Shown: positions 342-5,044 of the stretch, piece after piece | Position numbering within the stretch: position 1 is the first letter of the stretch | Layout: each line of letters opens with the position of its first letter | Source of the DNA: Oceanospirillum beijerinckii DSM 7166 | GTDB taxonomy: Bacteria; Pseudomonadota; Gammaproteobacteria; Pseudomonadales; Halomonadaceae | Length of the DNA stretch: 47,356 bases | Reading direction: 5' to 3' | Assembly: GCF_000422425.1 (NCBI RefSeq) | Contig: NZ_AULT01000049.1 | Location: 1-47,356, forward strand | Notes under the pieces: generated by a model | Databases searched by the model: none | What the model was told of the DNA's origin: nothing | Seen by the model: the letters and a program-made list of their open reading frames with translations, nothing else | Position numbers and translations under genes: made by a program

Positions 342-362
342 GAATGTTATGTTGTAACATAA
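342..362 (+). promoter_or_regulatory. Putative Zur (zinc uptake regulator) operator
   Basis: ATGTTA (344-349), five bases, TAACAT (355-360) is a perfect inverted repeat with the spacing of the gammaproteobacterial Zur box. A possible -35 (TTGTTA, 331-336) lies just upstream and the operator would cover the -10. It lies 43 bases ahead of the ATG at 404 and the downstream genes encode zinc-transport proteins, so Zn-Zur repression is the likely control. Confidence 0.8.
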
Positions 363-403
363 ATTTAAGGTTTATAACTCAATCCTACTCAATCGGTAAA
401 CCC

Positions 404-1747
404 ATGCATTTAAATACTCCCAACAGCAGCGCTAGCGCTCTGTCTTTTAGCAAGCTGGCATTAGCTCTGGCCTTATCCTCTATTCTGGTCGGTTGCAATG
501 GCCACAGTTCAGATAACGATAATGCGTCGGATGACGACCATACCGGTCACGATAATGACGATACTCATATCGAAAGTGCCGGTCGTCTTGCGATACTGAA
601 CAGTGCCGATAACAGCGTGAACTTTATCAGCCTGGATGATCAACAGAATCTGGGCAGTTTTACTCTGGGTTCTGCTGGTGCCCGTCTGCATGCCAGCCCG
701 GAATACCGTTATGTATTGGCGGCAGAGCGTGATGCCAATCGGGTGTCTATTTTTGATAGCGGTCTGTATACAGAAGATCATGGTGACCATCTGCACGACT
801 ATGAAGTGGCACCCAGTGACACCGGCCTGCAACTGAATGGCGCAGGCCCTACTCACTTCTCTGTGCATGAAGAGTATGGTGTGGTGTTTAACGATGCCGG
901 TGACGGTGTGATATCTTCTATCTCTGTGCTGAGCGATGAGCTGATCACTGCAAAAAGCACTTTCCCATCTCTGGAGCTGAGCAACAGCATGCACGGCGTG
1001 GCTAAGCTGATCGAAGATAAGCTGTTTGTTACCTACCGCGATACCTCGATTACTGACACCACTCTGCCTGCAGAAGTTGAGCGCTATAGCTTTGATGGCA
1101 CCCACTTCACCCTAGATACCCGTTATAACACTCAGTGTCCATTGCTACACGGTGCGGCGTCTAACGAAGAGCACCTGATCTACGGTTGTGGTGATGGCAT
1201 CCTGAGTATTGATCTGCACGATGCTGACTACACCGCGACCCATTACAGCAACCCAAGCTCCTTTGCCGAAGGCGACCGTATCGGCTCCGTTTATGCACAC
1301 CACGAAGTAGGCGAGATGATTGGCACCGTGGGGTATCCACACCGCTCTCTGTTCCGTCTGTCCCCAGAAGCAGAACAGCCAATTCAAGCGCTGGAACTGC
1401 CGGACGGTGATCTGTCTGTAACGCAGGGCTTTAACCAGGATGGCGATAAGTTCTACTCCCTGTCTCCAGATGGTCAGCTTCACTTCTACAACACGGCAGA
1501 TTGGACGCTGTCCAGCTCACTGCAGGTGATTGATGCGCTTACCGATGACAGCACTACACCTGTGATTGTTACGTCTCAGGCAGATGGTCATCTCTACCTG
1601 CTGGAACCAGACCGTCAGCGTGTACTGATTATCGACTCGGAAGCGGAAAGTCTGAAAGGTGCTATCGCTCTGGACTTCGCGGCCAGCACCCTGGTGTGGC
1701 TGGGTCTGAGTGCGGAACACGGCCATGACGAGCATGAGCATGAATAA
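404..1747 (+). CDS. AztD-like zinc chaperone lipoprotein with His/Asp-rich ends
   Basis: 447 residues starting at ATG 404; an in-frame ATG at 344 lies inside the Zur box and is unlikely. A signal peptide ends in the lipobox LVGC (Cys31), so the protein should be lipid-anchored. An acidic, His-rich linker (DDDHTGHDNDDTH) follows, then roughly 350 residues of repeating beta-propeller-like strands (NSADNSVNFISLDD, GDGILSIDLHD, QADGHLYLLEP), and a His-rich tail (HGHDEHEHE). This matches the AztD family, periplasmic propellers that hand zinc to the binding protein AztC. First gene of the Zur-controlled cluster. The propeller assignment comes from strand pattern only; a looser call is YncE/WD40-like metal-binding lipoprotein. 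Confidence 0.65.
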   Translation: MHLNTPNSSASALSFSKLALALALSSILVGCNGHSSDNDNASDDDHTGHDNDDTHIESAGRLAILNSADNSVNFISLDDQQNLGSFTLGSAGARLHASPEYRYVLAAERDANRVSIFDSGLYTEDHGDHLHDYEVAPSDTGLQLNGAGPTHFSVHEEYGVVFNDAGDGVISSISVLSDELITAKSTFPSLELSNSMHGVAKLIEDKLFVTYRDTSITDTTLPAEVERYSFDGTHFTLDTRYNTQCPLLHGAASNEEHLIYGCGDGILSIDLHDADYTATHYSNPSSFAEGDRIGSVYAHHEVGEMIGTVGYPHRSLFRLSPEAEQPIQALELPDGDLSVTQGFNQDGDKFYSLSPDGQLHFYNTADWTLSSSLQVIDALTDDSTTPVIVTSQADGHLYLLEPDRQRVLIIDSEAESLKGAIALDFAASTLVWLGLSAEHGHDEHEHE

Positions 1748-1816
1748 TCTCTGTCTGTTGGTCTGACGTTACGCTTTAGAGCGTTTTAACCAGACAGCAC
1801 CTGATCTAGAGCCAAG

Positions 1817-1856
1817 CTAAGCCAGAGGCTGTCTCAAACCAATGGCTTAGTTTTTT
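1817..1856 (+). terminator. Intrinsic terminator inside the zinc operon
   Basis: CTAAGCCA (1817-1824) pairs with TGGCTTAG (1843-1850) and is followed directly by six T. It sits between the lipoprotein gene and the outer-membrane gene, so transcripts from the Zur promoter may largely stop here, giving less of the downstream genes or requiring a second promoter in 1857-1913. Confidence 0.65.
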
Positions 1857-1913
1857 CTTCATATCTCAGCACTGATCTCTCCGGTAAGTGCAAATAGTAT
1901 TTAAGAACCCCTA

Positions 1914-3059
1914 ATGAAAAAACAATCCCTCTCTCAAGTTATCGCTCTGGCCGGCACAATCGCCCTGGCAGGTCAGGCGTCTATCACCAACGCCGATGAG
2001 TTTAACCCGAATATCGGTTTGGTTTTGGATGGTATCTACAAAGCTGGTGATACCGCGTTGCAAGGTTCAGAAAAAGGTTTTGGCCTGGGTCATACCGAGA
2101 TCACCATGGATGCCCCGGTTGATGATCTATTTTATGGTCGCCTGACAGCCGTATTAGAAGATCACGATGGCAGCACCGAGGTTTCACTGGAAGAAGCCTT
2201 TGTAGAAACCACCTCTCTGCCTTACGGTTTGCAGGCCAAAGCCGGTCGCTTCCTATCCAATGTGGGTTATTTGAATGGCCGTCATACCCATGAGGATAAC
2301 TTTGCTGAGCGCCCAGCGGTGTATCGCGCTCTGTTAGGCAGTCACTACTACGATGATGGCTTGCAGCTGACGATGCTGATGCCGACAGATTTCTACTGGC
2401 AACTGAGCGCTGAAGGCTTTAATGGTCGCCAGTTAAGTGGTGAGAGCCATGATAAAACGTTAGGTGTTTACACGCTGGGTACCAAGTTTGGTGGCGATCT
2501 GGGTGATTCCAACAGCTGGCAAATCGGTGCGTCTTATCTGCACAACCGTCTGACTAACGTAGGTGCAGAAGAGGACGATGCTTATGACGACCACGACCAT
2601 TCGGGTGACGATCACTCCGGTCACAGCCATAGTGCCCAATACGTCGGCAAACACCTTTATATCGCTGATGCAGTGTGGAAATGGGCGCCATCCGGTAATG
2701 CCAAATCCCAACAGCTGATGCTGTCCGGTGAGTGGCTGTATGCGGAAGAACCGAATCAACACGCGACTTCAGAAGACTTCCAGCGTGGTTGGTATCTGGC
2801 GGCCAGCTACCGCTTTACACCTCAGTGGACTGTTTCTGCCCGTACCGGTCAAGTAGAGCTGAGTGAAGCTCATGGTGATCACTTTCATGGTCAGGAGATG
2901 AAGGAAAGCAATCTGGCCCTGTCCTGGCGCCACTCTCACTTCTCGCTGATCCGTGCCATGTACACCCATCAGGACAGCGATCACTTTGATGAAGCGGACG
3001 ACACTTTGACCCTGCAATATCAGATGATTTTAGGAGCGCACGGTGCCCATCAATTCTAA
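1914..3059 (+). CDS. Outer-membrane beta-barrel protein, His-rich, in zinc operon
   Basis: 381 residues. The signal peptide ends near ITNA/DEF (about residue 27). The rest has alternating amphipathic strands typical of a porin-like barrel (LGHTEITMDAP, GRLTAVLEDHD, WQIGASYLHNRL, WTVSARTGQVEL) and ends in Phe (GAHQF), the usual C-terminal signal for BAM insertion. An extracellular-loop-like insert at about residues 221-241 is packed with His and Asp (DDHDHSGDDHSGHSHS), with further His clusters near the C-terminus (HGDHFHGQE, HQDSDHFDEADD). No TonB box or plug domain, so it is not a TonB-dependent receptor. Zinc capture or passage across the outer membrane is inferred from His content and the Zur neighbourhood. 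Its 3' end overlaps the next gene by 17 bases. Confidence 0.7.
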   Translation: MKKQSLSQVIALAGTIALAGQASITNADEFNPNIGLVLDGIYKAGDTALQGSEKGFGLGHTEITMDAPVDDLFYGRLTAVLEDHDGSTEVSLEEAFVETTSLPYGLQAKAGRFLSNVGYLNGRHTHEDNFAERPAVYRALLGSHYYDDGLQLTMLMPTDFYWQLSAEGFNGRQLSGESHDKTLGVYTLGTKFGGDLGDSNSWQIGASYLHNRLTNVGAEEDDAYDDHDHSGDDHSGHSHSAQYVGKHLYIADAVWKWAPSGNAKSQQLMLSGEWLYAEEPNQHATSEDFQRGWYLAASYRFTPQWTVSARTGQVELSEAHGDHFHGQEMKESNLALSWRHSHFSLIRAMYTHQDSDHFDEADDTLTLQYQMILGAHGAHQF

Positions 3060-4125
3060 TGGTTCCATATTGAGGAGCGGTCGCACTAAAGCTCTTGTTC
3101 TGCCTGTTAAATCTTTAGCGCGGCCATTTAAATCCCTGGTACTGCCGCTATTAACCACTGGAAGCCTGCTATTGCAGGCACTTCCAGCGCAGGCTCAGTT
3201 AGCTGCCCTGAGCCAAATCAGCCCTAAACCAGGCTCAGAACCGCTGCAGGTGTTTGCCTGTGAACCGGAATGGAAAGCCCTGGCACAGGATCTGGGCGGT
3301 GAGCAGGTCAAAGTGTTCACAGCGACCAATGCTTTTCAGGACCCACACTTTATTGAGGCCCGTCCATCGCTGATCGTAAAAATGCGCCGAGCGGATCTTG
3401 TAGCATGTACCGGTGCGGATCTTGAGATTGGTTGGTTGCCATTGCTACTGATGCGTTCAACTAACGCTCAGGTACAAACAGGTAAGCCGGGCCACTTTAT
3501 GGCCGCAGACTTTGTACCCAAGCTGGAAATTCCTCATCAGCACGACCGCAGCATGGGCGATATTCATGCCGATGGTAACCCTCATATCCATCTGGATCCC
3601 AGACGTCTGATGATGATTGCTGAGCAACTGAGTCAGCGTTTGGTTCAGCTAGACCCGGATAATGCCGCTTATTATCAGCACCAGCATCAGGTGTTTTTTA
3701 AGCAGTGGCGTCAGCAGCTGAGTCAGTGGAAGCAGCAGACTCGTGCGCTAAAAGGTCAGGCTTATTTTGTCCAGCATCGTAACTGGAGCTATCTGTTTGA
3801 CTGGCTCAAGTTGGAGGAGGTTGCTGATCTGGAACCCAAGCCGGGTATTCCACCCTCCAGCAGCCATCTGGCCAGCTTATTGGACAAAGTGGAAGGCAGT
3901 CAGGCTCAGGGCATTATGATCGCCAACTACCAGAACCCTCAGGGGGCTCGCTGGCTATCCCGACAAAGTGAGTCTCGTAAAAGTGAGTCCAGCGACCACC
4001 ATGATCATGATAAAGCGCTACCTGTGATTGAGCTGCCATTTACTGTCGGTGGGTCCGACCAGGCCACTTCTCTGATCAGCCTGTATCAAGACATTATTGA
4101 TCGTCTGCTGGCGGTGCGTTTATGA
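3043..4125 (+). CDS. znuA: Zinc ABC transporter substrate-binding protein (ZnuA/AztC type)
   Basis: 360 residues from GTG 3043, preceded by a Shine-Dalgarno TAGGAG inside the upstream gene, implying translational coupling. A long signal peptide ends in LPAQAQ. The cluster A-I metal-binding-protein signatures are all present: DPHF (His102), NPHIHLDP (His181/183), YFVQHRNW (His245), EPKPGIPPSSSH, and a late GGSD (Asp339); together His102, His181, His245 and Asp339 are plausible zinc ligands. A His-rich patch (HQHDRSMGDIH) precedes His181. The family delivers periplasmic zinc (or manganese) to a ZnuB-type permease; here zinc is favoured by the Zur box. The permease gene overlaps its stop by 4 bases (ATGA). 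Confidence 0.85.
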   Translation: MPINSNGSILRSGRTKALVLPVKSLARPFKSLVLPLLTTGSLLLQALPAQAQLAALSQISPKPGSEPLQVFACEPEWKALAQDLGGEQVKVFTATNAFQDPHFIEARPSLIVKMRRADLVACTGADLEIGWLPLLLMRSTNAQVQTGKPGHFMAADFVPKLEIPHQHDRSMGDIHADGNPHIHLDPRRLMMIAEQLSQRLVQLDPDNAAYYQHQHQVFFKQWRQQLSQWKQQTRALKGQAYFVQHRNWSYLFDWLKLEEVADLEPKPGIPPSSSHLASLLDKVEGSQAQGIMIANYQNPQGARWLSRQSESRKSESSDHHDHDKALPVIELPFTVGGSDQATSLISLYQDIIDRLLAVRL

Positions 4126-4970
4126 ACGAGCTGAGCGTACTGGGCGAAGGTACGCTTGAGGGGGTGTTGGAGCAACTGATCGAGCAGCAGGATATCCTGC
4201 TGCCCGCCTTTTTGGCCGGTCTGATTATTCTGCTCAGCCATATTCCACTGGGCCAGCGAGTGCTGAACAAGGGCATTATCTTTTTTGATCTGGCCATTGC
4301 TCAGTTATCGGCCTTTGGTGTGGTGCTGTTCTCAGTGCTGTTTTCTTCGTTAACCCATCCCTTGCTGGTGCAACTGATGGCAGCAGGAACCGCGGTAGGC
4401 GGTGCCCTATTGCTCTACCGTATGCGCCACTTGGCAGTGAAACTGCAGGAAGCCCTGATCGGTATCCTGTTTATGCTCTCCGCTACCGGGATTATGTTGC
4501 TGCTGGCACAGGATCCTCATGCAGGAGAGAAATTTAATACCCTGCTGTTGGGGCAGATTCTGTGGATCAGCTATGAGGACCTGGATGATCTGCTGCTATT
4601 AACTCTGGGCATTGGTGGACTTTGGTGGGGGCTGAGTCGGGCGAATCGGGAACTGGCGTTTTATCCCTGCTTTGCTTTGGCGATTACCCTATCAACCCAA
4701 TGGATTGGGGTTTATCTGGTTTTTGCCAGCCTGATCCTACCGGCATTAGTCAGTCAGAATAGTCGATCACCTAAAACCACCGCCTTTGTGCTGGGGTCCA
4801 GCAGTTATTTGCTCGGTCTGGTGATCTCTGCCTTGCTGGATCTGCCATCGGGTGCTGTTATCAGTTGGACGCTGGCGTTAACGGCACTGGGGTTTATTGT
4901 GTTGAAACACTCTCTGACAGATAAGCATCAGATTAAAAGCGGACAGAGCCCCGAGCCTGCTGCAAAGTGA
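4122..4970 (+). CDS. znuB: Zinc ABC transporter permease (ABC-3 family, ZnuB/AztB type)
   Basis: 282 residues, very hydrophobic, with about seven or eight membrane segments starting near LLPAFLAGLIILLSH. LGQRVLNKGIIFFDLAIAQL and HLAVKLQEALIGILFML match the ABC-3 permease family; the RVLNKG...LAIAQLSAFG segment is where these permeases usually read G-i-v-f-l..A..h.a..G. It overlaps znuA by 4 bases. The ATPase subunit (ZnuC/AztA) that normally completes the transporter is not next to it: the next gene, 5100-6206, is convergent and unrelated. A terminator follows at 5013. The permease must borrow an ATPase encoded elsewhere or work in another way. Confidence 0.82.
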   Translation: MNELSVLGEGTLEGVLEQLIEQQDILLPAFLAGLIILLSHIPLGQRVLNKGIIFFDLAIAQLSAFGVVLFSVLFSSLTHPLLVQLMAAGTAVGGALLLYRMRHLAVKLQEALIGILFMLSATGIMLLLAQDPHAGEKFNTLLLGQILWISYEDLDDLLLLTLGIGGLWWGLSRANRELAFYPCFALAITLSTQWIGVYLVFASLILPALVSQNSRSPKTTAFVLGSSSYLLGLVISALLDLPSGAVISWTLALTALGFIVLKHSLTDKHQIKSGQSPEPAAK

Positions 4971-5012: not shown

Positions 5013-5044
5013 AGCGCCCGAAGTAATCAATCACTTCGGGCGCT
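5013..5044. terminator. Bidirectional intrinsic terminator between zinc operon and nemA
   Basis: AGCGCCCGAAGT (5013-5024) and ACTTCGGGCGCT (5033-5044) form a perfect 12-bp stem with an 8-base loop. It is flanked by an A-run on the left (5007-5013) and CTTCT on the right, so it can serve the converging genes on both strands. Confidence 0.9.

Follow-up and report, generated by a model that had tools for sequence, protein, structure and literature searches.

How does a ZnuB-type permease work when the operon that encodes it holds no ATPase? The question is raised by a zinc operon at positions 342-4970 of contig NZ_AULT01000049.1 of Oceanospirillum beijerinckii DSM 7166 (47,356 nucleotides, called the window here), in which a Zur-type operator is followed by genes for an AztD-like lipoprotein, an outer-membrane porin, a ZnuA-like binding protein and a permease derived from the ABC-3 family of ATP-binding cassette (ABC) importers. 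ATP is considered indispensable for ABC importers. An initial annotation of this DNA had described these elements, and all of them were borne out: the Zur-type box, the lipoprotein, the barrel, the ZnuA-type and ZnuB-type genes, the tight coupling of the last three, the terminator and the lack of an ATPase gene within segment 342-4970. Its premise that a ZnuB-type permease needs ZnuC probably fails for the family described below. The permease is an ABC-3 homolog with a missing loop and a changed metal site; it belongs to a conserved gene cassette, and many of the genomes that carry this cassette have no canonical ABC-3 permease. The cassette combines ordinary regulation and an ordinary binding protein with an unusual permease. 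Judged from sequence and structure models, this is probably a zinc-starvation operon for an envelope-spanning route, and its ABC-3-derived permease would import zinc without an ATPase.

The permease keeps the ABC-3 fold and lacks a loop

The permease (4122..4970, + strand) matched Pfam ABC-3 (PF00950) at 3e-13, with 50.3 bits against a cut-off of 20.1, and has the fold of this family. The match was split, covering only residues 2-131 and 167-252, and no contiguous match that included the loop between the two halves was obtained. In the structure model (predicted local distance difference test score, pLDDT, 92.9), helices 151-174 and 176-195 were joined by one residue at the place of the loop, and a Foldseek search with this model returned PsaBC (7kyp, E 1.3e-06) as the best match, followed by BtuCD-type importers.

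Permeases of the same kind from other genomes (cassette permeases) were aligned with canonical relatives. The distance between two shared motifs was 49-53 amino acids in 108/108 cassette permeases, compared to 71 (22/23) or 76 (1/23) in the canonical ones. About 19 residues present in 23/23 canonical relatives were absent from all 108 cassette permeases, and in the canonical rows this stretch contains the motif E-L-A-x-V-E-G, with the A kept in 23/23 and the G in 22/23. The 108 rows comprised the window permease, its best 80 relatives and 27 of 28 loci from an order-level search (the permease of L062 was lost to the open reading frame (ORF) filter), and some genomes occurred in both sets. The 23 canonical rows were the permeases of sets C1 and C16 of the source genome and those of 21 out of 26 fetched loci, five having been dropped by the ORF filter or the best-hit rule. 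A profile of the cassette permeases matched one PDB sequence, that of ZnuB (9oko), and the alignment had an insertion where the loop lies.

In keeping with type II importers, we take the missing loop to be the helix that couples the permease to the ATPase. In PsaBC and MntBC, the halves of the transporter are joined by coupling helices, according to the accessible part of a published report (PMC11779740). The turn that replaces the loop (residues 166-179, 4617..4658, + strand), placed by anchor distance and block variability, ranked second in variability among 17 blocks in the cassette permeases, with 2.73 bits (residues 213-217: 3.05), and block 51-62, which holds the metal site, was nearly fixed (0.45 bits).

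The metal site is replaced

Manganese transport by MntBC requires an Asp-His-Asp triad, as stated in the accessible part of PMC8487065. At the matching columns, the canonical rows had Asp in 18/23, His in 23/23 and Asp in 21/23. The cassette rows had Leu/Ile, Gln61 (108/108) and Glu110 (107/108) at these columns, together with an Asp one position earlier (Asp56, 108/108). In the window, Asp56 to Gln61 are encoded at 4287..4304 (+ strand) in place of the canonical Asp/His metal-site residues, and Glu110 is encoded at 4449..4451 (+ strand) in place of the third canonical Asp. The cassette permeases also had Gly instead of Arg/Lys at position 51 (106/108) and a new His at position 40 (106/108). 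From the alignment, these changes look like fixed replacements and not decay. A pseudogene reading of the permease was not favored because the invariant positions are kept.

The cassette is conserved without an ATPase

A scan of GTDB species genomes yielded at least 577 confirmed permease relatives, and the best 80 of these were examined. Judged by their titles, most of them came from Gamma- and Betaproteobacteria and one from Desulfobulbaceae. The order porin-ZnuA-permease was recovered in 74/80 loci by script and in three more once over-long permease starts were set aside, which amounts to 77/77 uncut loci; the other three were cut by contig ends. No ATPase was found inside the cassette in these 80 loci, and an ATPase was present in 23/26 canonical permease loci by a strict motif test. 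The co-occurrence check proposed in the initial annotation yielded a conserved cassette of porin, ZnuA and permease without an ATPase. The constant gene order also speaks for the complete outer-to-inner membrane zinc route that had been named as a possibility.

ATPase-like frames were found near the cassette, within the fetched DNA, in 7/80 loci. The 651-amino-acid ATPase of L164 and the 633-amino-acid ATPase of L129 (opposite strand) were set aside as cassette partners and judged to be ABC-F proteins by their length; the small frame of L111 was judged YbbL-like, and that of L131 was distant and on the opposite strand. The zinc-type ATPases of L108, L156 and L157 were part of separate canonical sets with their own permease and binding protein.

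The order-level search recovered permease relatives in 33/194 genomes, and 28 of these loci were fetched. ORF calling recovered the ZnuA gene in 28, the permease gene in 27 and the porin gene in 26 of them; the genes lay together where found, with no ATPase adjoining. At the class level, the permease was found in 92/377 genomes. The record that carries the cassette in Sulfurovum mangrovi (L196, Campylobacterota) bears the label plasmid, a hint of horizontal transfer.

ATPases and other ABC-3 permeases in the cassette genomes

The source genome contained two sets of substrate-binding protein, ATPase and permease (C1 and C16) in addition to the window's third permease without an ATPase. The genome search for ATPase homologs that had been suggested at the outset gave two ABC-3-linked ATPases, each with a permease of its own. 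At L066:5590-6501, the C16 set was followed by an ORF that appeared ZnuA-like by eye.

A survey of ABC-3 permeases covered 80 near-complete genomes out of the 91 class-level cassette genomes besides that of the window, omitting G230, G286, G346, G467, G475, G515, G519, G533, G552, G556 and G562; G487 and G512 were classed by best E-values. A canonical ABC-3 permease was present in 35/80 of these genomes, and no other ABC-3 permease was found in 45/80. Of the latter, 40 had a best match weaker than 1e-14 (at the cassette permease itself in the 38 with a recorded position) and five had a sister-type permease only. In the order set (n = 32), no canonical permease was found in G042, G079, G108 and G045, a contig-edge fragment was the only one in G016, and G062 had one contiguous ABC-3 match at a cassette-like place.

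An ATPase profile (A5) built from 21 ABC-3-linked ATPases was searched against 20 genomes, six of them with a canonical permease and 14 lacking it (G042, G079 and 12 of the 45). The best scores were 127-153 bits in 14/14 genomes without a canonical permease and 198-391 bits in 6/6 controls, so that no ZnuC-level ATPase was found by this profile search in the 14 genomes. When inspected by eye, seven of the 14 top matches lay beside rpoN, three beside a FecCD-like permease and one beside a livM-like gene, and three had no assigned place; an ABC-3 permease was seen beside none of them.

Phylogeny and a sister clade

The permease tree comprised 82 rows (23 canonical, 52 cassette and seven extra). 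All cassette permeases formed one clade with a support of 0.976; the monophyly of the loop-less permeases was poorly supported (0.44). A sister clade of five genomes (L205-L209, support 0.995) had the same cassette, no adjoining ATPase and a re-made metal site. Loop loss is not universal among cassette permeases, since this clade keeps a degenerate loop region. The clade is a possible evolutionary intermediate, and it suggests an order of events in which the new metal site and the loss of the ATPase gene would have come first and the loss of the loop later.

Porin, binding protein and lipoprotein

The porin (1914..3059, + strand) was assigned from its structure model, its nearest solved folds and its invariant histidines. 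It has 381 amino acids, its model (pLDDT 84.5) had 16 strands by our own count, and the nearest solved folds were general porins. TonB-dependent receptors are 22-strand barrels with a plug, and this identity fails for the porin given its length, strand number and fold matches. His124, His126, His376 and His379 were each invariant in 75/75 rows and plausibly form a zinc path.

The ZnuA-like protein (3043..4125, + strand; Pfam ZnuA, 3.2e-37) has the three zinc-binding histidines of the ZnuA family, conserved across 79 aligned rows: His102 in 78/79, His181 in 79/79 and His245 in 79/79. It also keeps Glu264 and has an extra near-invariant pair, Cys73/Cys122.

The lipoprotein (404..1747, + strand) is predicted to be an AztD-like zinc-binding protein. 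The resemblance to AztD proposed in the initial annotation is real, with an E-value of 3.8e-14 against AztD in the PDB (6cmk), and distant, with 84 bits (8.3e-24) against an NCBIfam AztD cut-off of 400. The AztD-like gene does not belong to the cassette core, having been matched in only 3/80 loci. A small protein of about 95-115 amino acids (e.g., L050:9163-9450), with conserved His and a C-terminal R-A-P-P, was matched in 60/80 loci, and ORF calls placed it directly 5' of the porin in 46/80; four out of five examples had weak similarity to DUF2607 or DUF2946. A DUF1826 gene lay directly 5' of the AztD-like gene in L045, L071 and L111, with cobW before it in L045 and L111, and this neighborhood suggests a zinc role for DUF1826. 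AztD keeps company with ZnuA-family proteins and CobW, as described in the accessible part of PMC6689063.

Operon layout and Zur-type regulation

The window is the entire contig C41 of a 5.3-Mb draft genome; position 1 is the contig end, and no sequence can be read further left. The porin and ZnuA genes overlap by 17 bases and the ZnuA and permease genes by four bases, and a stem resembling an intrinsic terminator (12 pairs, eight of them G-C) follows the permease at 5013..5044 (+ strand). The ATG listed for the lipoprotein at 344 falls within the operator, and the ATG at 404 yields a signal peptide with the lipobox LVGC by eye. No forward-strand ORF of at least 80 amino acids was found upstream of 344 in the window. 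An ATPase gene just past the left edge is unlikely, though the edge is unreadable, because some AztD-bearing kin operons show DUF1826 there and no ATPase.

The Zur-type operator TGTTATGTTGTAACA (345..359, no strand assigned) matched the Zur core at 14/16 positions. It was the best match in the window (next best 12). The pattern TGTTAYNNNRTAACA had five sites genome-wide compared to one with the reversed control. Four of these sites lay beyond the window: one 5' of a CobW/COG0523 gene, one 5' of a ZrgA zinc operon, one inside a coding frame and one between the genes of another ABC transporter. Upstream of the C1 set there was a 13/16 match to the Zur core, and the C16 set had nothing above 10. 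Together, the operator match and the genomic sites make Zur control of the window operon likely. A consensus Zur box common to every relative was rejected, given the 8/72 relative loci with a match of at least 14/16.

Proposed mechanism and alternatives

In the proposed mechanism, the lipoprotein and the porin would capture zinc and let it in across the outer membrane, and the ZnuA-like periplasmic protein would receive it and hand Zn2+ to the inner-membrane permease. The permease may work without any ATPase, either as a uniporter gated by the binding protein, with the membrane potential and the low level of free zinc in the cytosol as driving forces, or as a carrier that couples transport to protons through its buried carboxylates. 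An ABC importer would have been turned into a binding-protein-dependent secondary transporter. We lean slightly towards extending this to the whole group, which would be a large family of proteobacterial permeases that descend from ABC importers, lost the ATPase and became binding-protein-dependent secondary zinc transporters with their own zinc porin, the sister clade showing the loop in decay.

The initial annotation had offered two ways out of the missing ATPase: an ATPase shared in trans, or a transporter of an unusual kind. An unusual transporter is well supported. Shared ATPases serve some sugar importers, and a second zinc system of the cell could lend the permease its ZnuC-type ATPase; the source genome has two ATPases with ABC-3 permeases of their own (C1 and C16), and a canonical ABC-3 permease is present in 35/80 cassette genomes. 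As a general answer, a shared ZnuC is unlikely because 45/80 genomes lack another ABC-3 permease, no ZnuC-level ATPase was found in 14 genomes without a canonical one, and the putative coupling loop is missing in 108/108 permeases; we consider this explanation improbable. Pairing with a divergent ABC ATPase, with one of another family or with a cytosolic motor through a different surface is a little easier to accept and still unlikely. The permease still has an ABC-importer fold, the 20 genomes searched contain numerous unrelated ABC ATPases, and genuine ABC-3 partners can fall within the background scores of the profile, but no ATPase gene travels with the cassette and the turn in place of the loop is among the most variable parts of the protein. 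The least probable alternative is a permease that has given up transport and serves the zinc-loaded binding protein as membrane anchor, receptor or sensor. It would account for the lost loop and for the lost Asp-His-Asp triad, which MntBC needs according to the accessible part of PMC8487065. However, the carboxylates are re-made and near-invariant, the fold matches PsaBC, and the permease is the sole ABC-3 permease in 45/80 genomes.

Several observations weigh against zinc import by an ATPase-free permease under Zur control. The canonical loop had a variability of 1.45 bits compared to 1.56 for the whole protein and is just slightly above average in conservation. The source genome has two ABC-3-linked ATPases (C1, C16), both of which scored below the ZnuC cut-off. 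ATPases adjoining canonical permeases can score as low as 150 (G462:C11) and 153 bits (L108), so the divide in the profile search is not clean, and each of the 20 genomes has many other ABC ATPases, one of which could dock elsewhere on the permease. In L164, the gene judged to be ABC-F lies directly 3' of the permease. The sister permeases retain most of the loop length, with 64-68 residues between the anchors, in degenerate sequence. A Zur box of at least 14/16 was found in just 8/72 relative loci, compared to about 0.4% in shuffles. Deleting only the ZnuA2 gene, which belongs to the Vibrio cluster compared below, caused no growth defect in V. parahaemolyticus RIMD2210633 and pointed to a minor role (accessible part of PMC9817125).

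If zinc import without an ATPase is correct, an ABC permease fold can carry its substrate without a motor, and the cassette would offer a system for measuring what ATP adds. Many environmental Gamma- and Betaproteobacteria would then carry misleading labels, 'zinc ABC transporter' and 'TonB-dependent receptor', and in some of them the cassette may be the sole importer of ZnuB type. For zinc crossing the outer membrane, the porin is a candidate route that does not involve TonB.

Comparison with known systems

The Vibrio version of the cassette is already known as a zinc-responsive cluster. The accessible part of PMC9817125 describes for V. parahaemolyticus, V. vulnificus and V. campbellii a cluster that encodes a 'Zn-regulated TonB-dependent receptor' together with ZnuA2 and ZnuB2, and it lists omr-znuA2-znuB2 of V. 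parahaemolyticus (znuAII/znuBII; VP_RS21420-21430) in the Zur regulon, up 283- to 1034-fold on zinc limitation. ZnuA2 (Vpa1307) was reported to help growth under zinc depletion (PMC3794297, accessible part). The V. campbellii locus L195 had porin, ZnuA and permease genes in the same order, the permease being short, with its anchors 52 residues apart, and is very probably the published cluster. As far as the accessible text goes, the Vibrio cluster resembles the window operon in having an outer-membrane gene, a ZnuA-like gene and a ZnuB-like gene in the Zur regulon with no ATPase listed; L195 differs in that no AztD-like gene was found there. The published label 'TonB-dependent receptor' misfits a 380-amino-acid relative of the window porin. 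No remark on a missing ATPase or loop was found in the accessible parts of PMC9817125 and PMC3794297, and neither a description of an ATPase-free ABC-type zinc permease nor an ABC-3 precedent for a secondary carrier or a permease acting alone was found in the openly licensed PMC literature, represented mostly by titles and abstract openings. Two other leads were rejected on partial sources: the Cupriavidus 'Zni' system consists of resistance-nodulation-division exporters, and the Burkholderia cenocepacia zinc-starvation genes include one for an ATP-binding protein and make up an ordinary ABC set.

ZnuABC shares a homologous binding protein and permease and a Zur-type box with the window operon, whereas the latter has no ZnuC, lacks the loop and the Asp-His-Asp triad, and includes a porin. 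AztABCD of Paracoccus likewise has an AztD-like protein beside a ZnuA-family binding protein, but the window operon is without AztA and its AztD-like protein is a lipoprotein; the window proteins stayed below the NCBIfam cut-offs for AztB (31.2 against 280 bits), AztC (67.9 against 350) and AztD (given above). ZrgABCDE of Vibrio has Zur-regulated zinc uptake in common with the window, and ZrgD (DUF2607) is weakly like the small protein of many relatives, but ZrgA (PF10986) belongs to another family. On contig C17, the source genome has a ZrgA-type zinc gene of its own (G000:C17:65642, L239), accompanied by an ABC ATPase gene and by a separate Zur-type box. Tripartite ATP-independent periplasmic (TRAP) transporters are binding-protein-dependent secondary carriers, and solitary BioY and CbiMN are permeases that act without an ATPase; unlike the window permease, these have other folds or are of the energy-coupling factor type.

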